DNA from: Branchiostoma floridae
Lineage: Eukaryota; Chordata; Leptocardii; Amphioxiformes; Branchiostomatidae
Assembly (NCBI RefSeq): GCF_000003815.2
Contig: NC_049986.1
Coordinates: 2,794,992 to 2,858,991 of the forward strand
Reading direction: 5' to 3'
Length of the DNA stretch: 64,000 nucleotides
A program made the translations under genes and the position numbers. Shown here one piece after another: positions 16,190-58,789 of the stretch. Under the pieces are notes generated by a model. It ran no database searches. It was not told where the DNA came from and saw only the letters and a program-made list of their open reading frames with translations. Each line of letters starts with the position of its first letter. Position 1 is the first letter of the stretch.

Positions 16190-19100
16190 ATGCCGAGAAA
16201 AAAGCAGAACCTCGATATAGTTGAAGACAGGCTGAACAACGACCAAAAAGACGATGATATTTCGGAGAAGAAGAAAGGTGGGAGGGCGAAACAGAAAGGC
16301 AAGGCTAAAATGAACGAAGAGGATTCCGTTCCGGATCGCGCTGATGTAGATTCCGGAAAGGGGAAAGGGAACAAAGGCAAGAAGGGACGAGATAGACGGT
16401 CAAGTCCATCAGGTATTGCCATTTTAAACAAATTTATGTGCTTATCGAGTAAAATTATACGTGAAATTTAATCCTTACGAAAATATAATTTTGTGGACTG
16501 TTCTAGAAAAATTCATGATGATGATAATAATTATTAAGCACATCATAATTTTTTCTAGAATTTATGAATTACTGTATTTTCATATTAATACAGTTATGTT
16601 TATATAGTTATGGCTATTAAACTAATAAAATTGGGTCTTTTTAATACAAAATAAAGATGGGGAGGGGGTCAAAAGATGTTACACTGGACAATTAGAAAAT
16701 ATTCTGGTAACGTTACGTTACCTCTAATTTTGACAAAACAAGGAAGAAGGGACAAGCATCAAGAAACCGTGTCTTTGCCCAGACCTTGTACCTACATGTA
16801 TTGTAACAATTGTGAAACAATGGTCCATCCTGGGCCATCCTATTTGTGATTGGATACGGTAGGCCCCCGCTCGCTTGGTGGGATCACTCGGTTCTAACTT
16901 CTAAGCGTCACCCGAGTCAGACAGAGCGTGGACAGAGCACACTTCTCTCTCCTCGGTCCATTCAAGTCATTTTTTTTCAAATTTTAATTCTGTTTGTGAG
17001 CCCATTAGAATGATAGAATGGGACATTTTTGTTTTGTGAATTTGATTAAAAAAAGTAATGTAACTTGTTACGTGATGAATTTTGCAGACTCAGTTGCCAC
17101 CCAGGAGTCGGAGTCGTCTGGCAAGGGTGGAAAAAAGGGGAGAGGGAAGAAGGGGCGGAACCGCAGCCCCAGCCCTGGACTGGAGGAGGACCTAAACCAG
17201 CTGAGGATAGAACAGGGCATGGACCAGGGGGAGGAACAGACTGGACAGCTGAGGATAGAACAGGGGCAGGAACAGACTGGGCAGGTGAGGATAGAACAGG
17301 GCATGGACCAGGGGGAGGAACAGACTGGGCAGGTGAGGATAGAACAGGGCATGGACCAGGGGGAGGAACAGACTGGGCAGGTGAGGATAGAATAGGGCAT
17401 GGACCAGGGGGAGGAACAGACTGGACAGGTGAGGATAGAACAGGGCATGGACCAGGGGGAGGAACAGACTGGACAGGTGAGGATAGAACAGGGCATGGGC
17501 CAGGGGGAGGAACAGATTGGGCAGGTGAGGATAGAACAGAACAGGGCATGGACCAGGGGGAGAAACAGATTGGGCAGGTGAGGATAGAATAGGGTATGGA
17601 CCAGGGGGAGGAACAGACTGGACAGGTGAGAATAGAACAGGGCATGGACCAGGGGGAGGAACAGACTGGACAGGTGAGGATAGAATAGGGTATGGACCAG
17701 GGGGAGGAACAGACTGGACAGGTGAGGATAGAATAGGGTATGGACCAGGGGGAGGAACAGACTGGACAGGTGAGGATAGAACAGGGTATGGACCAGGGGG
17801 AGGAACAGACTGGACAGGTGAGGATAGAGCAGGGCATGGACCAGGGGGAGGAACAGACTGGACAGGTGAGGATAGAACAGGGCATGGAGCAGGGGGAGGA
17901 ACAGACTGGACAGGTGAGGATAGAGCAGGGCATGGACCAGGGGGAGGAACAGACTGGACAGGTGAGGATAGAACAGGGCATGGACCAGGGCCAGGGGGAG
18001 GAACAGACTGGACAGGTGAGGATAGAACAGGGCATGGACCAGGGGGAGGAACAGACTGGACAGGTGAGGATAGAACAGGGCATGGACCAGGGGGAGGAAC
18101 AGACTGGACAGGTGAGGATAGAACAGGGCATGGACCAGGGGGAGGAACAGACTGGACAGGTGATTAAGTTATATATGCATGTTGTATCATAGATAACATA
18201 GAATGATAGCTCCAATCTTCAAGCATCTGAGTGCTTTGCACATGTTCTTGTGGCATTTTCTACGTTTTTCTAATGGTCCTTATTTTTACCACTTTACCCC
18301 AAAAAAGTGGTGTGGACCATTGCAAAAGACATGCATATGTAAAATATGGAGGCCAATCCTACATCTGCTTGGAGAGGAACATAGACTACTTTTTCCATTC
18401 ATTTTGAAATGTTGCATATGAAACTTTAAAAAATGTGATAATTGGTCATGCCACTGCCTTTGCTGCCTTGTGTTTGTTGTTTTGGATTCTGTCTTAATGG
18501 AATGTTTCATTGTTTCAGCCTACAAAAAAGAAAGAGAAGAAGAACAGAGGAAAGAAAAAAGGCAGAGGGAAGGACAATGACAGTGATGATGATGATGATG
18601 ACATGCCCCTGAACAAGTTCTCCTCCCTGGGTGTCAGTGATGAAGAGGAGGAGGATGAAGATGATCAACCATCAGCAACATCAGGTAGCTTCCAAATTGT
18701 TTGCTTAAATTACATCATGATAATCATCATTATCGGTCGACATGCTTACACATGACAGGTTTACATGTATACCGCCCCTTACGAGGTAAGATACTCTTTC
18801 GCTGGCTAATTACAAGACGGGGGTGCACCAGGTCTCCCTTCCTGGTGAATGATGTAAATCGCTGTATGGCTGATGCGAGACGGAGGTTTTCCAGACCAAA
18901 TCACCAACTCCAGACCGACGGATTTTGCACCATCACACCCCGGGGCATGCCCGTACTCTTTTTCGAAAGGTGTGATGGTTTCTTTAATGTGCATGGGGTG
19001 TGTCACAGGACCTCCATTTAACGTCCTATCCGTTGGCCGATCCTAGCCGAAGCTAGGTCCAAATTTTCACCTGAGTAAAGTGAGGAAAGTCCTGTTAAGT

Positions 19101-22100: not shown

Positions 22101-25100
22101 TTTTATCAATTTGTTTTCTAGAAGAGAAACAGGAAGACCTACAGAAGCTGAGCAGAAAAGATCGAAAAAAAATGATGAAAAAAGTGAGTGAAAGTTTTTT
22201 GATTAGTTCTCACACTGTATTTTCACTTACACTTACATGAACCTATATAAGATAAGCAAAATTACTTGTTCTACTTTAGTATTGTCTGTATGCACCTTAC
22301 AGAATGCTTGTATTGTAAATACAGAATTGTTTGCGGTAGCCAAATGTTAGCAGTTTTGCAGTGGCCACTTCACTTCACAAACTTTTTTCCATTATAGTAT
22401 GAGACTACAGTTTTTGGCGCTACCACAAACTTAAAACCACCGAAAACACTCAATTTTCCCACTACCGCGAAAGTAAATTTCCCCAAACTTAAATGCATTT
22501 ACAGTATCATGTGGAAATGTTTGTATTTGTATTCTTTGTTTTTGTTTACTTACTTTTTGTTTACATAGCAACAATTTGAGAAGAAATACGAGGAGATGTT
22601 AGAGCGAGAGTCCGCCGACCTGGGTCAGTTCACTCTGTCACAACAGCAGACTACTGCCAAGGGAGCCATTCTGGAGAATGTACAAGATATCAAGGTAAAC
22701 AAACATGTACACTTATTTGTATGTAGGTTGTATGTACAATCAACTCCTCTTGATTCTGTGTACAGAGTATTTGCAGGGCTCGAAATACTGGGTGCACCTA
22801 AAATTGGAGCTGTGCGCCCAATTATTTTCTGTGGGTGCACAGGGTGCACCCAATATATTTTCATATAGGCTTATGTAGTCAAGTCAAGTCAAGTCAAAGT
22901 TTATTGCACAACATTTGTAAACAGGTACAATGTATGGCAAACTTAGGTAGGGTTACATTGTACAGACAACTAGCAATATGCTAGTAGTGGAATCAATCTA
23001 ACAAAGTAACAATAGATAAAGGTTATGCAATGTTCTATTGCTAATAACATGAAAACATATCACATTCAGGCTGTATTTTTTACAAACAATATGATTGAGA
23101 GGATACACATCGAGGATCTTATCATCTAGTATGTACATTACAATGACAATGTATACATAATCAAGTTGATATCATGAGGTTCCTTTTCTGCATTGATGTG
23201 TATATGTATTGGCCTACGTAAACGGAAACAGTGTCGGGACATGACATAAGTACATGAAATAGCTCTCTGTTTGTCTTAGGTAATGATTTGTGCCTTATCG
23301 TCTGCATTAATTTAGCTCTTTCTTCTATGTAAGTTGGACATTCTATCATGAAATGGTATTCATCTTCTACGCCTTCTTTGCATGTTGGACATAGTCTCTG
23401 GCTCGCTGGGACTTTATTGTGACGGCCCTTTTCAATTTCTAGCCGGTGTGCAGCAATTCTTAGTTTTGTTGTATTGGCTACGAAGGATTTGTTATGGACC
23501 GAAAGCAAGTATTTCTCAATATGGAATTCAGATTTTATTTTTGAATATGTTTCGAGTTTACTGAAACTTTTGATTTTTTGTCGCCAGCTGGATAGAAACT
23601 CGTCTTTAAGGCGCTCCTTGAACATGTTTCCAAAGTGGTTGGCGCTTACGTTGGGGTTCAGCCAAATATTTTGGAACCCATGTCTACAGAGTGTATCTCG
23701 TACATGTATAACCCAGTCTTGTTCTAGTCTTACAGCTTCATTATATGCTTTTTTCACGATTCTGTCATTCGAAAGACTGTTCAATCTTATCCAATATTTA
23801 ACCAGTTGAGTCTGTGTATCTATGTATAGCGGGAACATACCTAATTCTCCCCTTACGGCAGCGTTAACTGAACTTTTGGGGACGCGGAGAAGTATCTTGC
23901 AGAAGTTTAGAAGAACATATTCTAGGTCGGAAACCTCGTAAGAAATCGGAGGTTGAGTTACCGTAATGTTTTGTTTAACTAATGTATTGGAATGGTATAT
24001 TATCTGTAACTTATCGTTGTACTTGCTGAATCGAATCAAAACCGGGCGGTTACATGGTGGGTCGGATTTTTTTCCGACACGAGTAGCTTTACGGATATTA
24101 ACATCCGATCCTAGTATCGGAGATATAATGTTGGATGTTATTTGTCTTATGTTTTCATTTGGATATTCCGTTATTCCATTAAGGATGAGATCCCGTGATT
24201 GAACTGTTGTTCCCAGTATCTCACTACAATAAAGCAGAATTGGTTTGACTAGACTATTAAATAAATCAAGGGCTAGAGGAATGGATGGGTTGTAGTTTGA
24301 CAGAAGGAGGGATCTAAGTTTGAAAGAAGCCCGGAGGGCTTTTATTCTCAGTTGTTTTGTTGCACGCTGAAATGATCCGGAGGGTGTTATATCTACCCCC
24401 AGATATGTATAGAAGTTTGTAACGTTTAAGGGCTGTCCTTGTGACTGGAAATTTGAGTTTTTGTAACCTGTTCGTCCAGTTTTTGAAAATATCATCACTT
24501 TAGTTTTGTCTCTATTGATTGCTAGCTTCCACAGTGAGCAAAATCTGTCCAGTCTTTTTAGGCACTCTTGGAGACCACTTTCTGACTTTGAGAAGAGGAC
24601 TAGGTCATCTGCCCATAGGAGACTGTTAATTGGGGTGTTCTCGAGCGTGACAGGGTCACATAATGATGAAGACAACTCGGATGGGAGGTCATTTATAAAA
24701 AGGTTAAATAGAAGGGGGCTTAGATTACACCCTTGGCGTACGCCGCATGTTGATTTAAAGTAGTCTGACAGGCCACCAGGAGTTTTAACACAATATTTAA
24801 CGTTGGAATATATGGATTGTATGATTTTGAAGAACTGTCCACCTATGCCTGATGATAACAGTTTGTAGCACAAGCCATCTCTCCAGACAGAATCGAACGC
24901 TTTCTTGAAATCAACAAAGCATGCGTATAACTTGCCACCAGGTTGAGACAACTGTTTATCGATGATGGTTTTAAGCACGAAGATGTTGTCACTTGTCCGG
25001 AAATTTTGTCTAAATCCGGATTGAAAAGGAGTCAATATATTGTTATCTTCCAGAAAGTGCTGCAGACGGTTACTTAATATGAGAGTGAACAGTTTCCCAA

Positions 25101-28100
25101 CGCAACTAGAAATTGCGATCCCTCTATAGTTTGACGGGTTGGATGTATTGCCACTTTTGTGTATGGGGACGAGAATGTTTTGACTCCATTGATTGGGAAA
25201 TGTACCGGACTGGATGGCGAGATTGAACAGTTTCTTCAGTGGCATGACAAGTTGGTTTGTGCCACATTTTAGCATTTCGTTGGTGATGGAGTCTGTGCCA
25301 CATGCTTTACGGCCCTTTAGTTTATGTAGTCCGGCTATGATTTCGTTTTCTAAAATGTCGTAGTCCAAGGGATTTCCCGTTTTATTTGCAAGGATCTTGA
25401 TAATAGTTTTGGTATGTTCCTTATTTTCTATGTCAACTTCGCTATCACTTCCCGTTGTCTGAAGCAGATCTGGTTCTTTCTGACCGATATGTTGATGGAA
25501 ATCTGTGTCGGCTTCATTACTTTTTACAAGATCGTTCAGATTTTTGAAGTGAGTTTTCCACTCTTCAGGACTTATGTTATTATTTACATCTTGTTTATCA
25601 TTTCCATCCTGGTTTTGAATTTTCATTTCTCTCCAGAATTTTTGTGGGTCTGATTTACTAAGTTTATAAAGATTGTTCCATTGCCTTTCTTTGAAGAGCT
25701 GTCTTTCTTTTTTAATCTTTTTCTTGTAAATTTTAAGGTTGTTAAAATAAGCATGGCGAAGATCAAGTTTCCAGGGACATTTAGAAAATTCTGTAGCTAA
25801 ACGATTGACTTTCCGTTTGAGAGCAGCACATGACTGGTTGAACCATGGTTTGTTTTTGTTTTTCCTTTTCTTTTTCTTTTTGTAGACAATCTTCCGTAAT
25901 GACTTGTCGGCAACATGTATGATAATGTCTTCGAATTCTTTCACGGCGCCTTCTACAGTCGGGAAGGATTTATCCATGAATTTCTGTAAATCTGTTAGAG
26001 TTGAGGGAGCTTGTAATGCCTCTGTAAATTTGTCTTTAGAATTGTCGTCCCAAACATATTTTGTTGGCAGTGGATGCGAAAAAGGTTTTGTTTCTTTTGT
26101 ATAGGGTGAATAATTCGTAGAGATTGAGCATGTTATTAAACAGTGATCGGAGAATATGGAGGGATCGTCCACTTTGAAGTATCTAACTTTTGGAAAGAAT
26201 TCCGAGCTAACAATACAATAGTCCACCAGACTAGAGCCGTTATATTTATGGCAGGTAAGCTTTCCGGACAGGTCTCCTGCGACTCTACCGTTTAGGATTG
26301 TTAGATTAGCAGATGAACAGAGCTCAATTAATTGCTTGCCGTATTTGTTTACACCTTTGTCGCAGCTTGATCTATACCGTAGGTCATCTTTGAAATCTAT
26401 AAAATCGTGATTTAGGCAGTCATCTTGAATTGTAGTCTCCTGTAGAGATGCTGTTCTTGCGTTAAGATCACCTAATAACATTATGTTCCCCTGATTAGAG
26501 AATTTTGATATATCATCTTGTATCATTTCAAAGGGCAAGTTGCTGTTTGTATCAATAGATGATGAATTTTCGGGGGAAAAGTATAGGCACCCTACAAACA
26601 GATCACGTTCTAGGCCGAAAAAGGTTTTATCTAATCTACACCATAAGATATCAGGATGTTTTGTTGGAAGTTTTGAAAGGCCTTTTGCAAGATGGTTTCG
26701 GAACATTATCATTACCCCGCCTGAGCTCCTTTTCACTACATTCCTATCGCTTCTAAAATAACTAAAAGAATCTAATCTAAAGTTTTCCTTGGGCTTAAGC
26801 CAAGTTTCTTGCATACACACGAAATCATAATCTTCTAAACAGCTAACAAAATCGTCGTCCTGGCTTTTCCGCTTAAGCCCACCCTGAACATTCCATGAAC
26901 AAAACTTCAGGGCTACCTTTTGCGCTGACATATTGAGTTTGACAATTGGACGATAATAACAGATATTCTAACACTGAGAGCTTGGCTACTTTGTGTGCAG
27001 AGTTAATCAATACAAGCTAAGGTAAATATGTACTTAAAACTTACATTACATGCGGGTTTCCCCTTTCATGGTAGATTGTACAGAAATATTTGTATGTGTA
27101 ATTATAAGGTAATTTTGTCACCTGGGTAGTCACTTGGACAAAACTGGTCGTTATCCTTCTAGCGAACCGGCATGTCTTCAGTTTAGTGTCTCAGGAAGTC
27201 TGTCAACATGTTCATAAGAGTCTCCACAGTTTGACGCTTGTCTCCAGTCTCAGCAAACGACGGTCCAGTCTTGTGGTTCCACTGTGGAGGTGATGGGGGT
27301 ACCTGGTTCCAGGGAAACAGCAGTGGCGGGTTCCTCTGAGGCATCCGCAGGGGCCCTGGCGAAGGTCGTCTGTCAGGCTGCACGGGCTTCCTTGGAGGTT
27401 CCTGCCGGGGTCCCAATGGCTGGTGTCGGTCGGATTGTGTGCGGTACGACACTGATGCACCGTTTCTTCCTGGATTCCTGTGTTGTGATGTCGGGTTTCT
27501 GTCTTGTCTGTCTGTCCGTTTTGCAGCTGGAGCTTCCCGTTGGTGCCGAAGTGTACGTTTGACATCAGCTACCAAAAGCCTGACGCCTGTGTCGGGTTTG
27601 ATATGGATCCCGTCAGGCTTGTATAGCGATCGATCTTCTGACAGCAGTCTATGTCGGATATAAATGAGATCGTTTTCCGCCAGACAGGACCTTTCAATGG
27701 CGTCGTTGTATGAAGCTATGTTCCTATTGAGCTTGGAGTTCATATTCGTTCCTCGCGGTAGGACCTGCGACATCCCGATCTTTGCGTTTGGAAAACACTT
27801 TCTGGTAGACTCGATAACTTTGTGTGTTTGTTCTACACATGTGGCAACGCTGTCTGGTCTGCTTTTAGTATTGTCCAAATCATTAGATGCGACATGGATG
27901 ATGACAAGCTCGGTGTTGGGATCTGGGGACGCGATAATCCTTTCGGCGGCTCTTGGTAGTGTAGTGGTTTTTGAGATGCTTGCTCTTTTGTGTTTGTACA
28001 TTTTCTCGGGATCGACATCATTCCACAGGGAATCCGCAAAGATTCTTACTTGCGTCGTTGCACCTTGATCGTTTTCGGTTGGAGTTGACGCTGTTGTGTT

Positions 28101-31100
28101 TCCATTAGTTTGAGCGGGGGCGGGAGCCGATGTCTGGGTGTTTGGGACAGCATCGGTGATTGGGTTTTGTGGTCGACCTTCCGTAACGATTTCAGAGTAC
28201 AGACGATTTATTCTGGACTCATCCTTCTGAGCTGTCTTCTCTGCTGGTCTTGTCGGGTTGTCGGATGGTTGAGCTTTGTTCGTCATTCTGGAGTCATCCG
28301 TCTGAGCTGTCTTCTCTGCTGGTATTGTCGGAGAGTTGGATGTTTGAGCTTTGTTCGTCAGGATGAGAACTTGAGCTTGCAAAGCGTCATGGTCGGCTTT
28401 CTGAGAAGCTAGCGTGTCAGTGAGGTTCTTCGTGATTTCACGTTGATGTTGAAGTTCAGAGCCAAGGTTCTCAATTTGTCGCGACTTTCCTATTCTGAAG
28501 ATTGGCTTGTAGACTAGCGATTAGTTTTCCTTGTTTGTCCATAGTAACCTTGTTGCTGAAAACCAGGGTCTTCAGCTCGTTCAGATCGTCCACCAGCGTT
28601 GTGTACATGTTCTCGTAGTCAGTACTGGGGAGATTTGCACTTGTTTCTGGCTCTTTTGGAAGGTCCATTTTTAGAGCTTGGCGCGAACTTGGGTTTGAGA
28701 GTTGTGGGTTACTCCCCTTCTTGTTTTTACCTGCAGACTCCCGTACTTTTGTGAATGGCGTAAGGAAAATGTTCTCAAGACCTCCCAGTACTTTGTATGA
28801 AAAGATGTCAAAGTATACTAGTATACAACATGTTCTTGACATCTAAGTGTTAGAAAGATAATAAAAATGTCTGTCATGGTACTTGTTTAAGAATTTGAGA
28901 GCTTGTAACTAAGTTTTATTTTTAGGATAGAAGCATGTTTGAACCGATGAAATATGTTTGATTGTGGTAGACACCTGATGCAACCAGGAACCAGTGATGT
29001 TGTCTATAATTTGCTCCATATCAAGGCGTAAAGTCAGGCGACAGCATTTCGACATTTAAATGAGAACGAGCCAAAAGTTGATCTTCAGTAAGGATTGATT
29101 TGAACCAATTGTGGTAGACACATGATGCAACAAAAATTTGACCCTTACAATTTTTTTCCCTCACTGGGGCTCAGAGACTGCTATCATGGTAATTTCACAG
29201 TAATTTTATCTTTTATAAGTGGCCATCCTTTGACCTGTTATCCTGCTTGGCTTGCATAGATTATTACAGGTCCAGTACCGGTACACCAGGGTTCCAGTAT
29301 TTTGGACCTGTACCTAATTGATTGTACAGTGTACTGGTACACAGCTCTAATTGTGATATCTGTATATAAGCAAAAGTTTCTATTGACCCTTCCCTTGTTT
29401 TTTCAATACCTAAGTTTTTTTACATGGTTTTCCTTATGCATGTATTCACATGAATTGACATGTATCCTTTGCCTTCCTGTTTTTCTTAGATTGACAACTT
29501 CTCCATCTCAGCCAAGGGTAAGGTCCTGTTTGAGAATGCACAGCTGCACATCACTGCAGGGAGAAGATATGGGCTGGTCGGGCCCAACGGGTGGGTGGCA
29601 CTGAACAAACTTTTCAAAATGTTTTTTATGTACCAACGTTTATGAACTAAAATTTACCAGGTAGCGTACACGTAGTCCAGTGGTTAGCGGCCCTGCCTCT
29701 GGAACTAGAAGCTGTGAGTGTGATTCCGGCTGTATCGCTCACCCGACATGCATGCTACTGGAAAGGGTTGTAGTCCTTCGGACGGGACGTTAAGCCGTGG
29801 TCCACTGTTCATTGTGCTTGTCAAAGAGAGCTAGGGGAATTTCTCCAGTACAATGAACCTGTAAAAAATTATGTCCGGGGCTGTGTGGCAAACAAGTCAA
29901 ATTGGTGTGGCCTTATGTGTTAACCTCTAGCCCCCTGCTGTAGTGATTGCGTTGTGTGTGGCCCAGGGCTAATGAAACAGAGATGGGCACCACCTATGCG
30001 CCATCTTGGCGCGGGAAGGGTTTAACTTAACTTTTATGTGTTAACAATACTGATATAAATGTACATGTACATGACATTGTATTTCACCCAGCCATGGTAA
30101 GACCACTGTACTGAGACACATCTCCACGCGAGCGCTGGCCATCCCGCCAAACATCGACGTGCTGTACTGCGAACAGGAGGTGGTCGCTGACGACACGTCC
30201 GCAGTCGACGCTGTTCTCAAGTCCGACACAAAGAGACTGGAACTGTTGGAACTGGTATGCTGTGTATTTTCAGTTATTCAACATATTGAAAACTTCTGAG
30301 ATGATGATTACATCTACGCCAAAAATCAGTTACTCAAGCAACTGGATATGATTTTGGACACTACAGTCAGACGGTTCAGACAACATAAGGCCAGACCAAT
30401 TTTATTTGTTGTTTCTCGGATTTCCCGACCCTAATTTTTCCGATTTGGAAAAAAACAAAACTTTTCAAACTGATGGCCACACCTCGTGTTGACAAAATTT
30501 TTAATGCCTCCCTTTTCTCAAATTAACTATGGGTCTCAAATTCCAGTAGCTGTACACGGCTTATTTGGACAGTAAGTTTATCATTTTTCTTCAAACTTTG
30601 GACTTTGCTACCAGGGACCCCCTAAATGTTGAAAGTTTAGGCTTCCCTGTCCAATCTCTCCTACCCCCGACTTTTTGAAAAGTTTTTTAAAAAATTTTTT
30701 TGTCCGACCGACCCAATTTTTTTCTGAAAAAATCCGAGAAAAAACAAATAAAATTGGTGTGGCCTAAGTTGTTTTCATCAGTGATACTGGAGAAATCTTG
30801 TTAGAGAATTTTTTTTATATCCTAGCTGTGAATTGATGTATAAAAGAATGTAGTTAAAGAACAGGTTTATCCTTACTATGAATTAATATGCAAAAAGGGG
30901 AGGTTGCCTGAGTAACTTCTTTTTGGCATATTTTATTACTGGACCAACAGATAATTACATCTAGTATACAATGTCATATTTTCGATTCACTTTGTAAAAG
31001 GGAAGGTGTTATTGTATGGTATTATAGTAACAACTTACTAGATTTCTGGCATAACCAATATGATAAGAGTCAAAGCTTGCATCAGTTCAGCTTATATTAA

Positions 31101-43879: not shown

Positions 43880-44055
43880 GACAAGGAATTGTGGAATGTG
43901 GTAAATTTTTTGTACAAAGGAAACACAACAAGAATCTGATAAACTACTAGAATTTTGACATACATGTAGCTAATTTTGACTAAGCCCTGTATTTGAATAC
44001 TCTGAATATTTCAGACAAATGATCCTTATTAACTTTGTAGTACAGTCCTGTAGGT

Positions 44056-47000
44056 TTAGTCCTCACTGCTGTCTGTGTCCCCCTCATCACCCAGGACTGT
44101 TGCAGTCAGCGAGCGGAGATCCTCCACAACAGAGCTCAACGGTTCTGCAACTGGAAATCAAATAGATGTTTTTAATGCTAATACTCTTAAAGACATGTTT
44201 AGGTAGACAGTGTGTATAGAAATTCAAATTGGTTAACAAGAATATTAAAAACCGTATTTCTTAAACATGCAGAGATATCAACCCAGTGTTCTAGCCAGCC
44301 AGAAAGTTTTTTTCGTCGCCTGGATTTGGAACGGAAATCCTGTCAAGCGCCAGAGGCTTCCATGCTATGGTCCTAGGGTGGTCCAGGAAAATTTTGAAAT
44401 CTAGACCCGCCAAAATGCTACATTTTGAGTGAAAATTTTTCTGTTAGAAAGGACTCATTTGGTTCAATGTGCTGAATTTTTGAAGATATTTGCAAAATTT
44501 TAACATGCCAATTTTTGTCTGTCACAGAGGACCAAATGGGCAAAATATTTTTCTGTCCCCAGCTGCAAAATTCCGTCAAAGGATGGATGGAAGGACGGAT
44601 GCTGGCTAGAACCCTTTATCAACCCTTACCAATAGGCTGCTGTTTGTCGGCAGTACCAGACCCAGTGGTGAGTTCACTTCCCTGTGGTTGTGTGTTGGAC
44701 ACAGCCTTGGCTGCGGCTGCCCTGTGCTGCTTGTACTGACCAATCAGGCCCTCCTGTCGTAGAGTAGCCTGAGGATCGATTACAGACATACACTAATTTA
44801 GAAAAATTTAATTTGGTATTCATGCAGTCTACATTTACTACATGCGACCTGATAATAAAAATATACTCATTTTTTTCAAAACACAAAAATTACATCTGAT
44901 GTCTCTTACAATCATATACTTTTAGTATGGGATTGTACAAAAAGTGACTGCATAATTCCCTCTTTATCATTTGTTACTGCTACTGAAAAATTGTATAGTA
45001 TCTCCCTCATCTAATATTCTGAAATCCCACATCTAACATTTTGAGCTGTGAACACCAGTGGTGAGACAAAACAGGACAGTACATATAAAAAAACTGACAC
45101 ATGCTGTATCCACAAATTCCAGGAAATTTAAACCTGACTAAAGTCTCATTCGTGTATTACTCCGAGTGGGTACCCTAACATAGATCTGACCCAAAAAAGT
45201 AACGGCTGTACGGACATGTGTTTTAAGCAGCAAGAAATTCCCTTTTAGCCATCGTAACTGATCTCAAATGTCAGATTGGTAAAAGTTTGTTTGTAACTGA
45301 AGAAAACAGTAGTTAATGTTTGGCAACCAAGCGGAAATGTCGGAGGTACACAGTCCTAGATTCTGAATGGTGTAGTTGCATAGTGTAGTTTGCAACTGCT
45401 ATAAACAACATATAGGCAATTTTTTCTCATGATCTATGGAAAATGTACTCAACAAAAAATGGATAAGGGGACCAGGTTTCCTGTAGCTTCATATGAATGC
45501 GCCCATGTAAAAAACATATTTTTGTATTACTTTCAATAGAGTGAAAAAACTCATGAATGAGACCCTAAGCCAGCCTGACCATGACCATGTTCCTGTCCCT
45601 GTCCACCTCCCTCAGCTGTTCCTGCAGCTTGTGCAGCTGTCTCTGGTAGTGCTGTTCCTGCAGCTGCAGCTGCTGCTGTCCCCGCTCCTTCTCCCTGCTA
45701 GTCTGGCGCTCAGCCTGTCGCAGCTGCACAACTGTTACAACAGGTGTCATGAATAAAACATTCTTCTGCACTGAGTCTGTGGCCTATGCAATATGCCTTT
45801 GGAAGGCTTTGCTAAGCTGGGCTTAGGTTTCGCATTATCAGCAGCTCTTAGCCAATAAGAGATATTTAGGCAATTCTCTGGATGACAGCTGGTTAGAGCC
45901 AATGCCCATGAAAGTGGAAACCTTAGCCTTCTTCAGACCCTTGTGGTACTTAGTGGCACAATGAGTAGCAAGTTTCCTTGCTGTTTCAGTAGCTGGGTAT
46001 AGCTTTATAGGGAGGGTTGCTAACCCCACCCTTTAACGTACGGGATGCACCTCCCTGTACAAGGAACCCCCATTTTACATCCCTTTAGCTTCCCTATATC
46101 TTATAAATCGTAGGACAAAAAGGGGAAATATTCTGATGTTGGGGTCATACTGCTGAAGGGGTATAGCCCAAGTGCTACACTTTGTATACTTTAATAAGTC
46201 CATCAGCTAACATGAAAGGGGAAGCATTCTAACAGGCCTTGGCAGCTTAGTTCCAATGAGGTTAACTTCAAAGAAAGCAGTTCTTGCCTGCTTTTGTGTG
46301 CTCTCTTCTGGCATCATTCATTCTCTTCTCCATCTCTGCTAACTGGTCCACCATCCCAGTCTGTACTTCCCTACCCCTGTCTTCAACAGCTGAGAGGATA
46401 GAAACAGTTTTATCAGTAAGACCTTTAGCTATCTTACCTATACTCAATCACTTCAAGTCTATAAACCAAACTGTAACCCAACATACATTGTAGAAATCAA
46501 CAGTTAAACCAAAAGGTAAGCATGTACTGTCATCATGATAGAATGACATCACATTCAAAAACCCTTCATTGTTATAAACATGAACATTCAGCACCAAGGA
46601 CAGGGAAGTGTGCATGTGGGTTGGTGTCCTTCAGCACCAAGGACAGGGAAGTGTGCATGTGGGTTGGTGTCCTTCAGCACCAAGGACAGGGAAGTGTGTA
46701 TGTGGGTGGGTGTCCTTCAGCACCAAGGACAGGGAAGTGTGTATGTGGGTTGGTGTCCTTCAGCACCAAGGACAGGGAAGTGTGTATATGGGTTGGTGTC
46801 CTTCAGCACCAAGGACAGGGAAGTGTGTATGTGGGTTGGTGTCCTTCAGCACCAAGGACAGGGAAGTGTGTATATGGGTTGGTGTCCTTCAGCACGAAGG
46901 ACAGGGAAGTGTGTATGTGGGCGGGTGTCTTTCAGCACCAAGGACAGGGAAGTGTGTATGTGGGTGGGTGTCCTTCAGCACCAAGGACAGAGAAGTGTGC

Positions 47001-50000
47001 ATGTGGGTGGGTGTCCTTCAGCACCAAGGATAGGGTAGTGTGTATGTGGGTGGGTGTCCTTCAGCACCAAGGACAGGGAAGTGTGTATGTAGGTGGGTGT
47101 CCTTCAGCACCAAGGACAGGGAAGTGTGTATGTGGGCGGGTGTCTTTCAGCACCAAGGACAGGGAGGTGTGTATGTGGGTGGGTGTCCTTCAGCACCAAG
47201 GACAGGGAAGTGTGTATGTGGGCGGGTGTCTTTCAGCACCAAGGACAGGGAGGTGTGTATGTGGGTGGGTGTCTTTCAGCACCAAGGACAGGGAAGTGTG
47301 TATATGGCTGGGTGTCCTTCAGCACCAAGGACAGAGAAGTGTGCATGTGGGTGGGTGTCCTTCAGCACCAAGGACAGGGAGGTGTGTATGTGGGTGGGTG
47401 TCCTTCAGCACCAAGGACAGGGAGGTGTGCATGTGGGTGGGTGTCCTTCAGACAGGGATGTTTAACAGTAACAAACACATGATGATTCATTCAGTAACAA
47501 ATGAAATGTACTAGATCTATTGAGCATATCCCACCTTTTTCAGCTTCTATCTGTTGTTTAGCTAGTTCAGTTTTCAGACCATCAATAGTGTGGTTAGCCT
47601 CCTGGATGTTGTCCTCCAGTTGTGATAGCTGAGCACCCAAGGACTGGCATTTCTGCACAAAGAATTGCAATTATTATATTGTTAACCATGCCTTACTCAT
47701 CTCTCTACATAGCTTCTAACAAATCACATATTCTATGCATGATGAAAATTCAGCAAGAAGACTTTGCGTTATCTATACCTTCTACTGTCTTAAATTTCCT
47801 TAAGTTATAGGGTAGTAAATACTAGCCTGGGTACCATCCAGAAAGTAGCTCACTCCGGCGCTAGTTCTACACTTTATACAGTCGCTTCTAGCTCTGACAT
47901 TCGTTATAGTTTATACACTATATACTGTCGCTTCTCTGCTGTTCTGTCTGGGATCCTTGACCATGTTAACATCTGGAATCCTCCAAATTTTGGACGAAGG
48001 CGCTGATTGGTCCCTACATATAAGTGGAGGTAAGTAATGGGTTCAAGAGCACATTCCAACACGCAAAACGGCCTTTGTCCACTTATGGAAGGCCTGTTGT
48101 CATCGAATGAGCGCTCTAGAACTCTAAGCTCTAATCTTAATTCGCCCAATAACTGACATCACCACCAAAAGTTTTGAATGTGCAGATCTCCAGAAGGGTA
48201 GCAGAAGCGAACTACTACCCGGATGGTATCCAGGCTAAGAAAATACTCCTTGAAAGCAAATATAAATGCTACTTCCTCCGCATTGCCGACTGTGTTATCT
48301 TTTATAAGTAAGGAAGTATGTGATAAGATTATCACCTGTGACTTCTCTTCCATCAGTTTGTGTAGCTGTACAATTGTCTCCTGTTGGTCCTTCAGCTGAC
48401 CTTCAACTGAAGAAAAACATGGCAGGTTAGTTACAAAGTTGCACACTAATGTCTTACATGTATGTTTTACCAGCTCCTGTTATCTACACAGTCTTTAATA
48501 AGTACTTTAATGTCCAGAATGTACTGTTTCTGTGCTGATTTACTGTACAAAAAAGGTAACTGCAATGTGAATACTACCGTTAAGTTTATATAAAGCTAAA
48601 GATACAACCTGCTGTACATGTAACTGCATGCTGTCTAAGTGCAAAAACTTTGGTAATCTTTTGGGATTCGTAAGTGGTAAGTACTGACTCCATACAAAAT
48701 TCTATGGAATCCAATGGATTTGGGAGCACACAGACAAGTCGTAGCACGTTAAGTGCATTGAGAACTGCGGATTAACCCCTCCTACGAGACAGTACTGGCG
48801 ATTCCCGTACAGCAAGCAGAGTAAGTAAGGAAACTGTATCTACACAACATGTGTAAGTATGACCTGCATGTGGTAACGTGGCAATCACAAAGAGATTGTA
48901 CATTGTAGGCATGTACAATTTACCACTTGAGCAACGAACGATGCACGCAAGCGTAATACGGCCAGGCGTGGCGTGCAGACCACATACTTACACATTGCAC
49001 AACCATGAGTGACATGCGTTGAGATGCACTCCCTCCCTGCTCTTGCCATTCCTTCCACACGTTTTCAGAGAAATGTGGTGGACATGGCCTCACAAAAAAA
49101 AATGTATGCCAGATAAAAACATGCATGGTTTTGCTCTTAGCTTAAGTGCACCAGCGGGCTTTATTACTGCCTTACATTTGTGCTTGTTTGCAGCCATCCT
49201 CTGGTCCAGTAGCTGAGAGTCTTCTCTCATCTGAGCAGCCAGCTGATCTCTCTCCCTCCTCACTCTGTCCAGCTCCTCATGTAGCTGGGAAGGAAGCATC
49301 CTGACAAAACACAGACTTCCTGTTAAAGCATTCTCATGTGGAGAGACATCCAAAGGCACCGGCAAACCGCCTCTTGTCTGTACTCTGCTATCTCACCTGT
49401 CTCCATCAGTTCCTGACCGCCCTGCTTATACTAAGCTATTAATGAGCTTACCCTTCAAAGTCCTCCCCAGAGGATGGAATAATGTAGGCCCTCCACTATA
49501 CTCCTAGCCCAGCTCCACTATACTACTTTTGAAATTTAGTGTGTTTCTTCCCTATTATCTTTATTTTGCTAGAATTAATGAAAATTCACAGATTTTTGTG
49601 CCGAATGGCATCACTTTTGCAGTGGGCATTGTCTGCAAAACTTGTGAATGGGTGATGATCAAAACAATAGACATTTTGCCACTTCACAACAAAGGAATCA
49701 CTATACAATATATTATACTTGTAGTATTTGACACCCTGTTGGTTCGGGTTATTTTTGCCAGCCCCTCCACTATACTAAAAAATGCTGGGGAGAACCCTGC
49801 CCTTATATATGCGAGATCTCTTTTGAAAACTGAAAGGCCTATTCTCTGATTGGCTGACAGCTGGTTTGTGTTGACACCCAGAGGAACTGATGTTGACGGG
49901 TGTGATAGCTGAGTACAGACAAGATTCGGTTTGCTGGCTACTGCATCTTTTGAGTCCAGGCTAATCTTTGATTGGATTTTCTACATACTTTTTGAAAACA

Positions 50001-53000
50001 TAAGTTCATTAATTTAACAAAGTGCAGTGCATATCGAACATTGTAATAAGAGGAGATATGAAGGCCTTATCGGGCTGCTAATATGGGATAACTTTACCCA
50101 TCATGCTCTTTTTCAGGCTGATCCTCCTCTTCTTTGATCTGATTGGTTGATTCCTCTAATTTCATCCTCCACATAGCCTCTCTGCGGGCAAACAACCCTG
50201 GCAACAAAAAACATCAACCATCATGATCAGTTTGGTAACGTTTTGTAATAATTGGGATTATTGTTGTGATCATGATGACCTGAATATTTCAGGATGTGAT
50301 TGTAAAAATATTAGAAGAGATAATAAAACTGAATTTTTAATTTTTTAGGGCATCATAACTTAACATTAGGAGTCTCATCAAGTATGCAAAAATGACAGAT
50401 ATGAAAATTCTACCAAAGCCATTTTGCCAGTTTTGATAAAATAAGCTAAAATGACAGATACAAAAATCCTAATATTGGTAAAACCATTTTGCCATTTATG
50501 ATAACCTTCCAAATCATGATGAACCTTCCAAATTATGTGTTTGCAGCACAGTGGTGTGTACCATTTGAAAAAAGGTTAAGCTTCTTTGGCACAATCCTGG
50601 ATAATGTCTACAATACTACAAAACCTATGATTCAGAAGTAACAATGCAACAATGCATTAATTCCTTCTATTGTACCTTGTAGCATATCTAGTCTTCCCAC
50701 AGCAAAGTTCAGCCTCTGAGAAAAACTGGTCAGTTTGGATCCTCCAGCCTGTAACTTATCCTCCTGGGCTGCAAATGCTTCAAATGTCCTACCAGGGATG
50801 GAATAGATCCTAATCAGTCACATAAACTGCTTTCATCATAGGGGGCTTTTACTCACAAACTGAAACGTCATTGTGCTCGTCCGTTAACAAAGAAAGCGTT
50901 TCATAAAGTGTTTGCCAAACCCGGAAGAAGCAGGTGTTCGATTACAATCTTTGCCCTTACTGATTAATGACAGGTAAGTAAAAAAGGCCATCTTTATTGG
51001 TATTTTTCACATTTGGGAAGGGGAATAGTAATGTACATTGTATAGCGATACTCGGAAACGTTTGACCGCTTGTGTGCGGGTACCGGGTTGCCCAGCGGAA
51101 GTGAAAGCTTGCGATACGCCAGGCCCCTTTCGTTATACCAGTGGCTGTCAGGGCAGAGACTGTAGTCGAACACTTTTTCCAAACGTGTCCTTTGTTGTTG
51201 ACGTTGTGGTTTGTGAGTAAACTCCCCCTCCCTTATGACAAGAGCAGTTTGTGTGGTTCAAAGGGGTCTATTGCAGGTTAACATTCAGAAATTAAAGAAA
51301 ATGTTTTCTTATCAACTCAATGGCAGCCTTTTTCAATTACAATTGAAGGACAATTCAATGGGCTTCACCCCTGAGGTGTCACCAAAAAAGATTTAAAATC
51401 ACCTTTTTGTGAGGTCACACAGCTGACCATTAGCAGCTAATTGTGCATCCATTTTGTCCTGAAGGCTGACCGCTGTGTCCTGGGCGGAGGTGACCTCTGC
51501 CTGGAGGGTCTTTACTCGTGTTTTCTCCATCTCCAGCTCTGCTGTCCTGTCTGCCAGCATGTGGGACAGCACCTCGCTGTGACTGGTACTGCTGTTCAGC
51601 TGGTCCTCTAGATCTGCAATCTGACATTGAATGATAAAGACCAGGGAAATTTTTCAGGGCTGGACAAGTCCACTAGTCCTCTTGCCCAGGAAAGTGAAAG
51701 TGCTGATAGGGCAAGTGCATGACCTACCCCACCTGCCTGATCGGGCAAGTAAGATTTTTCATTGCGAATTTGATTACTTGTCACTTTCAAATGGTCAACA
51801 CAGAAATATAGAGGCAATAATAAGAATTCCATTGCTAGAAGTGAAAATGTACATAAAAATGACATTTGAATTTTGGGCAAGTGAAAAATTGGTTCGGGCA
51901 AGTGAATTTTTTTATGTACTTGCCCGATAGGACTAGACTAAGTGAATTTCAGAGAACTTGTCCAACCCTTTTCCTTACTCTCATTTCATATTAGAGGCTC
52001 AATGAAATAAAGTAGTAAACTAAGTGATGGAGCAAGTGAAAAGAATCAATTGCCGCTGCATCTGCAACTTTTAAAAATGATGTACAAATGTATCATTGGT
52101 GGCTGAGCTTTTAACTGTAAAAAGTCATTTGATGACACTCCAAACCAAATGGTTTACCAGTCTTCATCACATGTATAACACAAACAAAGATTACCCTATA
52201 TGTACCTTTTGTTTGTAGTTAGCTATGTCCTTTTTGTGCACTATTTCCTGTGACATAAGCTGTACCATCAGGGCATACACCTTCTCTCTCCATCTAGTCA
52301 GCAGGCTGTTCATCCTCTTGTTCATGTCACTACCATCTGACTTGCTCTGGAAGGGGAAAAGTATTTTTATTTTATATCATTCACATACATTTTGTGAGTA
52401 TCAGACAAAAAGCACAATTTGCTTAATAAATACAAAGCCTTCTACCCAAAAACATGAGCATGAAACAAGAGTACTAAACAATGTCAACATATATGCATAA
52501 ACACAAAATGGATAACAGGAAGGTAGATTTAGACAAGACAAGTTGGTGCTGAATCAATTAGGAGAATCTACCTGTGCAATGGATATAAGTCACTGTGGAC
52601 AATATCAAAGATATTACAGTTTTGAAAGTGTGAAAGCGATTCTAATCCTTCTAAGGTCTCATTACACAATAAGATCGCCCCATTGAATTCAATGCTTTAA
52701 CACACAACTTCTATGTCCGCAAATTCAATTAAAACACAGTCTATTTGTAAGCACACACGTTTGTTAGACAATAAAAAAATTTTCACCCAAATCTAGCCGA
52801 CGCAACAATTTCTATCACATTTCAAAATGCACCTAGCCGCTATCCGCTAGAGGTCGTCTTCAATACCCGGAGCCTGACCGGAGCACTCAGTACAAATAAA
52901 CGTAAACGTCCGAGGATCGATCGGGTCACGAAACTTTCGTGCATGATCATGCCAGTAATATACGTCAAGCTTTCATCTAAATTCCTTTTCATATCAGTTA

Positions 53001-56000
53001 TGGTTTATTAATGGGAATTTATGGTCCACCTAAAACAACGCTTTGCGGGCCAGATAATTTTTTCGTCCGGATTCCTTTACACTCTACACTCGGAGTAATA
53101 CAGGAATGAGACCCTAACAGTAAAGAACATAATGTACTGTCAATGAGTTGCTGTAGGTCTACTATATTGGATACAGATGGTAACAGAGAACTTCTTTGGC
53201 TGGTATAAAGTAAAAGTATTGTTACTGTACAGCCCATTTGAGACTTTTAAATCTAAGACATGTGCATGTATATCCTCCCATGCACTGGCAAATAGCAGCG
53301 ATGACAATACATTTATATTGTTGTCCTACATGTAACTGATATAAAATTTCAAGAATACTCTATTGAACAAATATCTCCTTAGAGGAATCATTAACTATTT
53401 GAGGCATTAGAAATAACGCCAGTTGAGTGTAAGTGTGAAATGTACCTTTGTGATGTCAGCTTCTTGTATACTGAGGATGTCCGTGAAGGAAGTTAGCCTC
53501 ATATTCAGCAACTGTTCAGTTGATTGTAAGTTCTCAACTTGTTGTTCCAGATCCTGCACCATATAGAGATGACAAAATTAAACTTTCCTTTGTTACGACA
53601 TACTCAGTATTCTTGTGACCATAACTACTACTGTAACAAAAAAGTTTGTTTTGCAAATACTTTTTGTTGCAAATTTACCATAATGATGGTAGAATCATGT
53701 GTGTCTTCAATGCCATGCCTCCAATGTTTTCGAATTTTGTGGACAATTGGGCTAACTTGTCTGACGACAACTCTTTTGTAGCACATTGCAGTGCTTTTCT
53801 ACAGTGCATTATTTTTAATATTTATATATCATCTAAACCCTAAACAAGCTATTATCATATAATCTATCAATCATTACCTTTATCCTCTTGAGTCTCTCCC
53901 CCCTCTCCAGTTTCCACTGCTCTGCTGCCTGTCTGTCTGTCTCCATCTGTTTGAGATGAGCCTTCAGCTGAGACACCAGGCTTCTGGAGGACTGCAACTC
54001 ATCTGATGTCGTCCTGTTATGATAAGATATCAACCTCCGTGACAAGTTTCATCAGGTTGGTACTGTACGTCACTGAATAAAGAGACTTTTCGATGACCGT
54101 CTGTCATCTTCTTCAGGGCAATTCTTACTGGTTTACATTGTACTGCAGGACAGGTGTCGCGTTAAGCTGCCTTTACATATGTACTAAAATACTTTACTTT
54201 TGTGAAACCATCTGAATTTACTTTTGTGAAAACATCTGAACTGTTAGCAGTGACACCTGTCCTGCAGTACAATGTGAACCAGTCAGAATTGCCCTGAAGA
54301 GTGTGACAGACGGTCACCGAAACGTTAGTGAGAATAAAGTTTTGGTTGTGTAAAAAAAGAGTCAATTTGATATCAAGTTATGTTGAAGCCTGCTTTCTGG
54401 AACATGCTACCTTGATATGTCAGCTATTGACAGACATATCCAAGACAAATGACACAAAATTAATGTATATGAACATGTACAATAAAGGTAAATATATTCT
54501 GATATATTCAATTATAAAAATCATCATTTCCATTTATAAAAATCATCATTTTCTGAGGCACCATTAATAATGCTCAAGAAAGAACCTACAATGTGTGTGT
54601 CAGGGTAGCAATTGAAATTTGATAGAATCGCTGATTCTACCTGTAGAAATCCCGATCGGAGTCTCTGTTTTAAAGAGACTCTGATCGAGATGATAGGGAC
54701 ATGCTACAGTGGTCTCCTATTTACACATGTATAAATCCTAGGGTTCAAGTCAATCCATTGATCGGCGCGGCAGCAGCTGGTTATATTACACTGAACGACC
54801 TGTCACGCCGAACTTCTGTACATCTTTACATGTGCAGAGAGTCTGATAGGGATCTTTACAGTGATTCTTCCAGAATGTCATCTTTACCCTATTTTTACCA
54901 TATATTTGCATGAATATACAAATATACCTGACTTTCTCCTGGAGTTCTTCCTTCTCCAGAGCAGACCTGTATATCTGGTCTTCTAACTCAGCCAGCCTCT
55001 GCTCATAGTCAGTCCTGCTCTCTTCCAGCTGTTTCTGAAGACCTGACAGTGATGACATGGCTCCTCTCAGTTCCTCTTCATGGGCTACTTTGATCTTGTG
55101 CAACTGTGGAAATAGAATACTGCTACCTTTTCTGTCTAGTACCACATTACTTGTGTCTCTTGAACCTCATTTTTCAAGGCGCCATACCCTTCCATCAAAA
55201 TATAATGTGAACTGTATACCTAAACAAATTTTAGGTACAGGTCGGGTACAGGTGTACAGGTTTAGGTACCTGTACCTGATCTACTTGTTCAAGTAAAAGT
55301 CAATCTTCAATAAGGATAGAACCATCTTTGAACCAATAAAGATGTGTTTCATTGTACATGTAGTAGACACCTGATGCAACAAAAATTTGACAAAATTGTT
55401 GTTTTTTTCTCTTACTGGGGCTCAGAGACTGCTATGGTAATTTAATTTGTCAAAGCAGCCATCCTCTGCCCTGTTATCCTGCCTGGCTTGTATCAATTAG
55501 ATACCTGGTCCAGTACAATATATTAGGAAGAGGTCCAAAATACCAGAACCCTGGTGTACTGGTATTTTGGACCTGTACCTGATATATTGTACCGGTACTG
55601 TATTGGTACAGTGTACTGGTACATAGCTCTAGTACATACCTCATCTTGGTGTTTCCTGTGTGCATCCTCCAGCCTCCTCCTGGCCTGTACAGCTGCATCC
55701 TCCACCTGTCTGTCCTGAGCTGACACCTGCAGCTGTAGCACCTGCACCTCTCTACTGTGTTCTGCCTTCAGGGCGGTCAGCTCAGCCTTCAGGTGGACTA
55801 GAAATTGAAAAAAATAAACCAACAACTTAGGTCAGAATGTGGTTTCATTCAACAGGATTTGTATGTATTTTGGTCAATATTGACCATGGTAAAATCCTAA
55901 TTGATATCAGCCCTACAGCGTCGACTGTGGCTAAACAGTCCTATGGGAGAATGACAGTCTCTGCCACATATGACACAACCATCTTTATGTAATCATATTC

Positions 56001-58789
56001 ATAATGATTATATTGAGTATTTATGATCTCAATACAAAAGATAAAAATTGATGGCTCTTGGTGGCAAATGTGCAGATGTTGGCACACTGGCGTACCAAAT
56101 CCGTGTTTTTGGCACACTTTTTGACAGACATGCCGACGAGGCTAGATGGCGTCACTCCACCATCACCGTCATTGGTGGGTATATATTGTGCCTTTCCCAA
56201 GGGCACAAGGTCGGGCAAGGGGGGTATTGAACCCAGAACCTATTGGTTCAGATTCGAACGCTCTAGCCGTTGCGCCACACAGACTTCACTGATGATTTCA
56301 ATTATTTACTTGATTTTTGTTGCCAATTTCCAGCAAGAATTCTACAGTAGCAAAATAGCTAGACAGTCACGATAGCAGTTTAAATTTAAGCATAAAAGAT
56401 AAGAGTTCCCCTACCAATGTCATTAATCTGTTTGTCTATGATCCCTTGTAGGTGCCTGGTGGTTTCTCCATTCCCAGATTTGTGTAGGTCAACCCTGGCT
56501 CTGATTTCCTGTGGACAAACAGCACATATGTGGCAGATTAACATACATTTTGTATGCATGTCAGTAGAGGTATAGTACAGAGTGAAATTGGGTCAAAGAT
56601 ACATACAGACATGTTAGAGAGAGAGAGAGAGAGGCAGAGAGAGAGAGAGAGACAGAGTCTTAGAGATGGAGATTCAGACAATGCCAAATCAATTTTTTAA
56701 AAAGCTGTCAAAACCAAGATTTCCTTGTTCTTCTGCGTTACTTGAAATGTATATGGAACATATACTTACATTTCTTAATCATAAAGAGATAAGACAAGAG
56801 TAGCGAGATAGATTAATCTCCAAGCAGATGCTACGGTGACGTAAGTTAGCAGCAAAGCTGGCCAAATGGGTGTAGGATATGCGGCAAAAGTTACCTAATC
56901 AGCCTGTAATAAAAGGCGTGAATTATACCTAAGCTAACAGTCCCGGGCGGATTCTAACGCAGGCGAATTTAACTCCATTCCACATCGTTTCGGCGTTATG
57001 GAATGCCACATATGACCACATATGAAGGTCTAGGTTGAATCGCTCTATCAGTATCTAGTAACAGGACTGATGATGTTTATATACATACCTCTCCAGCTGG
57101 TATCACAGCACTTCTGGCTTGTCTGTGTAAAAAATCGACTCAGTATAAATTATACTTTTAGTATTACACAATAGCATATTAAAACATCTTTAGAAAAGAA
57201 ATTTTTAAAGCAAATCCACATAATGATCCCCATGCTTTAACCATTACTTGGGTCACCAATGATTGAGCACAAGGGAGTTTTGGCCAGCCCTGGAAGGATA
57301 GGGCCAGCCATTTACCTCAGGCTCAACTTCTCAGTTTAATCGGTGGCCATAATGCGTTGGGCCACCAAAGAACCTGGCTGGCGACCTACGTCATTGGCAC
57401 CCAGGGTAAGACCGATACTGTACTTAAAGAAAAAAAAAAGAAATTAAAAAGACCAGACCTGAGCTGTTGGTTTTCCGTTCGGAGGTCCAGCACATCCCTG
57501 GTTAACTTCCTGACCTGAGTCCAGGCGTCCTCCACTGGGGGGGACTCAAAGTGAGATGGTGGGACAAGTTGGGGAACATCTCTGGTTCCTGGGGCAAACA
57601 TATAATATTTTTGCAATATGTATGTAATACGTCAACTGATGATGATGATGTAACTTGTTGGTCCTTTCACTGAGATCAGAACGCATGTGAGATGACATGA
57701 ATTCCAGGTAATAAGGATAAGGCCCACAAAAAGAAAACAAAACCTGTCTGGACATTGTTATGGACACTGTTTTCTTTTTCGAGGCATATTGTCTAGAATT
57801 CCTGTCACCGCACATGTGTTCTGATCTCTGTTTATGTTGAAACTTGAAAGTACAGTGTAAGTTCTGCTACTAGTACTAGTAACACAGTGAAGAAGAAGCA
57901 TCTTTGGTATGACCAAATAGCAGCAGGAAACGTTACATGAAACGAAAAGAATTTTTAAGGTACGTGTCACGCGTAGGTAAAGAATATATAGCAACATGCA
58001 CGTAACGTTACTTCTCAATACCACGATCGTCAGGAGGGTGACTACACAGGCGCAGCCTACTTCTGGCTAGACATCATCAAGGTATCATCAAGGTATATAA
58101 AACTAAAAGGACACAAACTCTACCGCCCCCCTCCCCAAACACATTAATTCAGCATCTAAATATCCTTTGTAGGAAACCACTCAGTCACTTCAACATGACC
58201 TTGGTGTAATTCTTAAGGCACTTAAGTGTTATAATAAAGCTTGGAGCCTCAACATACTAGTAAAGTTACTGTAGAAATTCAGAGGGGTGAGTAAGAACAG
58301 AAAGAAACAACACCCCGGCTCCCGGGATTCGAACCCGCGCCGAACCCGGGCAGCCGGATCACAAATCGAACGTGCAAACCGTTCGGCCAAAAGGCTTAAG
58401 CCGTTAGGCGTCTTCGGTTTAGCAGTCCTTGAACACCACTGTTACACTACTCCCCCTTTTCTTTTCAAGATTCGTCCTCGAATCTCCAAGATCGACATCC
58501 CTGTGTGGCACATACTAGCCTGTTACTCACAGGGCCGGTGTGGGAACCATTGTAGAAATTCAGAGGGGTGAGTAAGAACAGAAAGAAACAACACCCCGGC
58601 TCCCGGGATTCGAACCCGCGCCGAACCCGGGCAGCCGGATCACAAATCGAACGTGCAAACCGTTCGGCCAAAAGGCTTAAGCCGTTAGGCGTCTTCGGTT
58701 TAGCAGTCCTTGAACACCACTGTTACATTACCGTTTGTAGGTTGTTTTGGCAGAGAGAACGCCTCCGGAGGATTCAAATCAGCCGCCAT
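44056..58789 (-). CDS. CCHCR1: CCHCR1, coiled-coil alpha-helical rod protein 1
   Basis: Long coiled-coil protein; the human protein localises to centrosomes and P-bodies. Exons, 5' to 3': 58789-58732, 57588-57459, 57122-57089, 56508-56415, 55797-55640, 55103-54928, 54013-53878, 53553-53446, 52346-52206, 51620-51403, 50788-50676, 50197-50098, 49300-49176, 48406-48336, 47652-47535, 46389-46288, 45731-45580, 44768-44630, 44150-44056. They sum to 756 codons including the stop, phases consistent throughout (human ~780). Diagnostic matches to human: VPPSHF near the N terminus, SLLTRWREKVYALMVQL, NDARREHTKAVVQLRQ, DRDRNMVM then ATLRQEGLIGQYKQ. The acidic C terminus ends DTDSSED. Intron 16 uses a GC donor and intron 17 a weak GTCAGG donor. 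No globular domain is visible. Confidence 0.92.
44284..44616. mobile_element. hAT-like MITE, family A copy 3, at a CCHCR1 splice donor
   Basis: Ends 'cagtgttctagccagcc' and 'ggctggctagaaccctt', with a perfect 8 bp duplication TATCAACC at 44276-44283 and 44617-44624. On the minus strand the element begins right after GTAAG of the CCHCR1 exon 18 donor plus the duplicated target, so it is inserted about 5 nt into the last intron. Confidence 0.9.
46580..47452. repeat. 43 bp minisatellite, about 20 copies
   Basis: Unit approximately 'ttcagcaccaaggacaggga' followed by 'agtgtgtatgtgggtgggtgtcc'. Substitutions among units are few (c/t, g/a). As 43 is not divisible by three and the unit lacks stops, all three plus-strand frames stay open for long stretches; these ORFs are not genes. 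It lies in CCHCR1 intron 15, transcribed from the opposite strand. Confidence 0.95.
47823..48237. mobile_element. MITE with 9 bp target duplication, copy 2
   Basis: Ends 'tagcctgggtaccatccag' and 'cggatggtatccaggcta'. The flanks AGTAAATAC (47814-47822) and AGAAAATAC (48238-48246) match at 8 of 9 positions. The interior is similar to 41388-41811 ('gtcgcttctagctctgacatt'). In CCHCR1 intron 14, ending about 100 bp from exon 14. Confidence 0.9.
49336..49955. mobile_element. MITE, 'gagacat...ctcttgtctgtactctg' family, copy 1
   Basis: The left part 'cggcaaaccgcctcttgtct' and its continuation 'gtactctgctatctcacc' recur inverted at the right as 'tagctgagtacagacaagat'. Related to 63554-63832, which also shares 'gaaaggcctattctctgatt'-like sequence. 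The ~300 bp middle here may be a further insertion. In CCHCR1 intron 12. Confidence 0.65.
51655..51969. mobile_element. 'ggctggacaagt' MITE, copy 2
   Basis: The left end 'cagggctggacaagtcc' and right end 'acttgtccaaccctt' are inverted repeats. The interior parallels 36782-37159 ('gaattccattgctagaagtg', 'gtacttgcccgatagg'). The target duplication is obscured by a T run. It sits ~35 bp from the CCHCR1 exon 10 acceptor. Confidence 0.8.
54083..54352. mobile_element. Fold-back element, 'gtcaccgaaacgtt' family
   Basis: The left arm from 54093 ('tgaccgtctgtcatc', 'ttcagggcaattcttactgg', 'tactgcaggacaggtgtc') pairs with the right arm up to ~54325. Arms are ~75 bp, the loop ~100 bp. The right end 'agttttggttgtgt' matches the right end of 4784-5051. 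The loop contains a direct repeat of 'tttacttttgtgaaa'. In CCHCR1 intron 6. Confidence 0.8.
55300..55640. repeat. Dispersed repeat, pair member with 28925-29345
   Basis: Shares ordered blocks with 28925-29345, including the terminal segment 'tacagtgtactggtacatagctc'. A local inverted repeat ('ggtccaaaataccag' against 'ctggtattttggacc') is present. Ends at the CCHCR1 exon 5 donor. Confidence 0.65.
56150..56285 (-). mobile_element. tRNA-derived SINE fragment, second family
   Basis: The minus-strand head 'tgtgtggcgcaacggctaga' (A box) and 'gggttcaatacc' (B box) are followed by 'ccttgtgcccttgggaaagg', as in the copy at 18800-19195. The body is short, so this is a truncated copy. In CCHCR1 intron 4. 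Confidence 0.7.
56615..56657. repeat. (GA)n microsatellite
   Basis: Imperfect GA repeat with interspersed 'ggca' and 'gaca'. Confidence 0.9.
58269..58731 (-). repeat. Two copies of a tRNA-like SINE beside CCHCR1 exon 1
   Basis: The blocks 58269-58449 and 58551-58727 are nearly identical direct copies (282 bp apart). On the minus strand each contains a tRNA-like head with 'ttggccgaacggtttgc' (A box) and 'cgcgggttcgaatcccgg' (B box). The second copy ends within the first bases of CCHCR1 intron 1, right beside the exon 1 donor. The ~100 bp between the copies is unique. Tandem duplication or two insertions are both possible. Confidence 0.75.

Follow-up and report, generated by a model that had tools for sequence, protein, structure and literature searches.

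A convergent ABCF1 and CCHCR1 pair in amphioxus

The window analysed here is a stretch of 64,000 nucleotides from Branchiostoma floridae (C8:2794992-2858991), taken from an assembly of 513,431,437 bases in 431 contigs, of which C8, with 25,575,982 bases, makes up 5.0%. Coding segments were chosen by a codon score trained on exons of the window itself, and the flanks were examined leftward for 100 kb, of which a quarter is N, and rightward for 140 kb. The window holds orthologues of ABCF1 and CCHCR1 that run toward each other from the ABCF1 ATG at position 16190 and the CCHCR1 ATG at position 58789 (Table 1). A first-pass annotation made from the sequence alone had described the two genes as convergent direct neighbours with about 1 kb between their stop codons, and its coordinates and geometry are right, the measured distance being 996 bp.

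Table 1 Features of the window and its right edge (window positions unless marked C8).
Feature	Position	Strand	Description
BTB-BACK-Kelch open frame left of ABCF1	12608..14308	-	BTB 8.8e-30, Kelch_1 4e-28, BACK 1.9e-24
ABCF1 orthologue	16190..43059	+	21 exons chained as three blocks, and a further exon that is disrupted; stop codon 43057-43059
LINE-type retrotransposon	23161..28842	-	Inside an ABCF1 intron; endonuclease-RT ORF and GDSL-type ORF
Gap between ABCF1 and CCHCR1 stop codons	43060..44055		996 bp
CCHCR1 (HCR) orthologue	44056..58789	-	16 recognised exon cores; stop codon 44056-44058
AFMID-like (arylformamidase) exons	59961..64000, on to ~C8:2859087	+	By eye; sub-threshold Pfam Abhydrolase_3, 22.5 bits vs 25

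Among ABCF proteins, ABCF1 is the one to which the twin ABC domains of the first gene are closest. Against human ABCF1 (PDB 5zxd) its joined exons, a 414-aa query ending at the disrupted ABC2 exon, reach 598 bits, and against the best other chain, the ABCF2-type ARB1, 294 bits; the Pfam ABC_tran profile matches in both pieces of the gene. The 21 exons chain with GT/AG sites as separate blocks of 6, 12 and 3; no join between blocks one and two was obtained near 22.1 kb, and one small exon after 32937, where the alignment to human ABCF1 has a gap, was not found. In this assembly one ABC2 exon (37278-37700, + strand) carries an in-frame stop and 3.9 copies of a 74-bp tandem repeat, the unit of which consists of the exon end plus intron-like sequence, while the exons downstream of it remain open. 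This disruption may be an assembly error, an allele, or a change that is dealt with by splicing. A genome-wide ABC_tran profile search, in which only the best candidates were scored, gave no place on C8 among the 21 places listed, so that the ABCF1 gene of this window was itself missed by that search.

Repeats and mobile elements occupy parts of the same gene. A 48-bp minisatellite of 20 copies (17198-18163, + strand) extends from an N-terminal exon of ABCF1; the unit length is divisible by three, and in one frame it reads as a 16-residue repeat interrupted by stops. The intronic LINE has, beside its endonuclease-RT ORF, a second ORF (27183-28520, - strand) with a GDSL-type esterase domain.

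The CCHCR1 model (458 aa) matches the Pfam HCR family at 1.8e-20 (73.1 bits, cut-off 25.9), and a search of the 513-Mb genome found HCR once, at C8:2847194-2847319, corresponding to 52203-52328 of the window. Compared with solved structures, the model gave no match at E 0.001. The first 11 of its 16 exon cores chain pairwise; the last five do not under simple splice scoring. The HCR match and the ABCF1 score together uphold the identities originally assigned to both genes. Two exon cores of CCHCR1 are separated by a 43-bp minisatellite of 20 copies (46587-47451), whose unit is not a multiple of three and which has long open stretches in several frames. The first intron of CCHCR1 contains, at 58275-58730, an element of at least ~165 bases in two direct copies 281 bases apart, in which ARAGORN found no tRNA. 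Across the window as a whole, ARAGORN (bacterial code) reported no tRNA and Rfam gave no match at gathering score.

FLOT1 lies beside the pair

To the left of ABCF1 are a BTB-Kelch gene, genes of the C-type lectin/EGF kind and, with an Ion_trans match at 1.9e-6, an HVCN1-like piece. At the left end of the window itself (28-3523), a 350-bp unit that holds one EGF-like exon is repeated in tandem almost ten times, with ~95% matches, and copies resembling this unit recur about 82-92 kb to the left.

The first-pass annotation had named the flanking scaffold as a place to look for more class I framework genes, and the right flank does contain one: FLOT1 lies on the - strand at C8:2869945-2897470, its near end 11 kb past the window. 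The gene model reaches 543 bits against FLOT1 and 337 against FLOT2, and a Band_7 domain (3e-22) is present in it. The last exons reach C8:2869945, and for the first exon there are two alternative matches, at C8:2897470 or 2884443. With FLOT1 next door, a further 6p21 homologue exists within a few hundred kb of the pair. A Pfam Flot profile search of the genome gave no match; we reject this as a sign of FLOT1 absence and regard it as a false negative, as the gene is identified by its 543 bits and the Flot model was silent on a direct scan as well. Within FLOT1, at C8:2876518-2877160 and C8:2878799-2880982, one exon is present in two copies and another in up to three; the extra copies are 60-78% identical to the model and resemble mutually exclusive exons.

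ABCF1, CCHCR1 and FLOT1 thus span C8:2811181 to ~2897470, or ~86 kb (73 kb with the nearer FLOT1 first exon). Between CCHCR1 and FLOT1 lie the AFMID-like exons and a gene at C8:2861384-2863042 (- strand) with no Pfam family match. Beyond FLOT1 are NUBPL (ParA 9e-30) and an otopetrin (4.6e-24), along with TMC-like and ZZZ3-like exons recognised by eye only; the TMC-like piece has no Pfam family match. The AFMID, NUBPL, OTOP, C-type lectin, HVCN1-like and TMC-like neighbours are not known to be 6p21 genes, and the human positions of AFMID and OTOP, beside the cluster, would point to a possible link with 17q25. Class I framework genes make up three of the roughly a dozen recognised genes around the window, genes missed by the codon score being uncounted.

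MHC-linked families on the same chromosome

Genome-wide profile searches were made for eight MHC-linked families outside the window. Those for Flot and for ATAT1 found no match anywhere in the genome, and both are therefore counted as uninformative, leaving six families. We take CSNK2B, BRD2, PBX2, VPS52 and WDR46 to be MHC-linked by human position, with VPS52 and WDR46 in the extended class II region. Homologues of four of the six informative families are on C8, namely CSNK2B at 4.53 Mb, PBX at 6.63 Mb, BET/BRD at 10.32 Mb and GTF2H4 at 19.86 Mb, the last 17 Mb from the cluster; VPS52 is on C17 and WDR46 on C1. About 5% per family would be expected on this 25.6-Mb chromosome, and the probability of at least four in six is ~9e-5 when the expectation is set to the share of sequence and the families are treated as independent.

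The position of VPS52 on C17 prompted the idea that the class I framework and the classical proto-MHC anchors derive from two amphioxus chromosomes. We set it aside, since BRD, PBX and CSNK2B are on C8.

The two families found elsewhere agree with the caution of Nakatani et al. (PMC8302630), who, in the text available to us, regard the proposed proto-MHC chromosome as an artefact, split over several proto-vertebrate chromosomes. They are also what could be said for pure coincidence, in which the cluster would owe nothing to conserved chromosome ancestry. We give that account very little credence: four of six families share C8, and two more class I families would come to lie beside ABCF1 in a random genome with a probability of only ~3e-5 to 1.5e-4. 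This estimate assumes 26,000 genes, 12-25 class I framework families and 18 neighbouring genes.

Origin of the linkage

Animal genes seldom move between chromosomes, and it is for this reason that we ascribe the linkage on C8 to common descent. ABCF1, CCHCR1 and FLOT1 form an ~86-kb class I framework cluster, and the chromosome that carries it, in our judgement, probably shares a pre-vertebrate ancestor with much of the vertebrate MHC region. The framework genes would have been kept on one chromosome by descent, and if so their linkage is older than both the genome duplications and the class I genes themselves. Neither selection nor an immune role would be required for such linkage. All three are non-immune framework genes, and an immune function is not implied.

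Selection could nonetheless have kept the cluster together, for example if a convergent pair of housekeeping genes shares chromatin or is co-expressed, and the short distance between the ABCF1 and CCHCR1 stop codons speaks for such an account. We regard it as improbable, however, as the large introns with their LINEs and minisatellites suggest little constraint on compactness.

How old the close adjacency is constitutes a separate step, and a less certain one than linkage at the level of the chromosome. The available text of PMC7269912 lists BFL8, which we assume to be C8, among the B. floridae chromosomes that match ancestral linkage groups one to one with scrambled gene order, and reports extensive internal rearrangement of amphioxus chromosomes. 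With the chromosome conserved and its order scrambled, chance may have reunited ABCF1, CCHCR1 and FLOT1 within the amphioxus lineage, in which case their adjacency would be uninformative on the ancestor. Under the same assumed numbers, two or more class I families would lie beside ABCF1 with a probability of 0.012-0.048 if all were on a scrambled C8, and the order of the three genes is unlike that of mammals. Against such a re-meeting stand the density of class I framework genes, of which there are three among about a dozen genes recognised, and the strands, which for all three genes are as in mammals, although the strands by themselves would agree by chance one time in four. We consider the re-meeting a serious contender, if a somewhat doubtful one; it is compatible with the chromosome-level part of our preferred explanation.

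Because the chance of such a neighbourhood is low in a random genome but reaches 0.012-0.048 on a scrambled C8, the adjacency of ABCF1, CCHCR1 and FLOT1 suggests a retained block, short of proof. That the block, with its mammalian strands, already existed as a cluster in the chordate ancestor, earlier than the genome duplications and than class I genes, is a reading that we hold tentatively, at close to but below an even chance; the MHC class I region would then have been built later inside an older neighbourhood. The first-pass proposal that the ABCF1 and CCHCR1 linkage may predate the MHC is supported as far as linkage goes, through the adjoining FLOT1 and the presence of GTF2H4, CSNK2B, PBX and BRD on C8. 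Direct adjacency as the ancestral state fares less well, given a gene order unlike that of mammals and the location of VPS52 and WDR46 on other chromosomes.

The cluster does not bear directly on how amphioxus immunity works. Its interest lies in the framework hypothesis, according to which class I genes came into an older scaffold: with class I framework genes added to the picture, three of them within 86 kb, this hypothesis becomes directly testable in invertebrate chromosome assemblies.

Comparison with mammals and other known systems

A literature search, covering mostly titles and the starts of abstracts and few subscription journals, found no report of ABCF1-CCHCR1 linkage in amphioxus. 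In mammals, a bat MHC scaffold has, in the part of PMC4753418 available, the order ABCF1 (+), FLOT1 (-), GTF2H4 (+), CCHCR1 (-), and a table in PMC1309616, likewise available in part, lists the human class I genes. Bat and amphioxus agree in relative strands, with ABCF1 on + and both FLOT1 and CCHCR1 on - (PMC4753418, as available). They differ in order, which is ABCF1-CCHCR1-FLOT1 in amphioxus and, to the extent that these two sources cover it, ABCF1-FLOT1-CCHCR1 in mammals (PMC4753418, PMC1309616). Unlike the mammalian class I framework as it appears there, the amphioxus arrangement has GTF2H4 17 Mb off and other genes interspersed.

Caecilians offer a second vertebrate comparison. The accessible text of PMC12619710 describes a framework cluster of GNL1, ABCF1, DHX16 and FLOT1 beside class III, so that ABCF1 and FLOT1 are together, as in amphioxus. 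That cluster is a vertebrate one, however, and CCHCR1 is absent from the text of the paper as far as it is accessible.

A further close counterpart is the amphioxus proto-MHC, or primordial immune complex, of PMC10751288. In the part of that source available, the pre-duplication complex comprises rxr, notch, pbx, brd, psmb5/6/7-like and c3-like genes, with amphioxus work (Abi-Rached 2002, Castro 2004) cited; this account of the pre-vertebrate MHC is built on few anchors, namely BRD, PBX, NOTCH, RXR, C3 and PSMB. Two of its families, BRD and PBX, are here also found on the chromosome of the window. Whereas the complex as given in that part of PMC10751288 names no class I framework genes, the present analysis adds ABCF1, CCHCR1, FLOT1 and GTF2H4, the first three of them tightly clustered.
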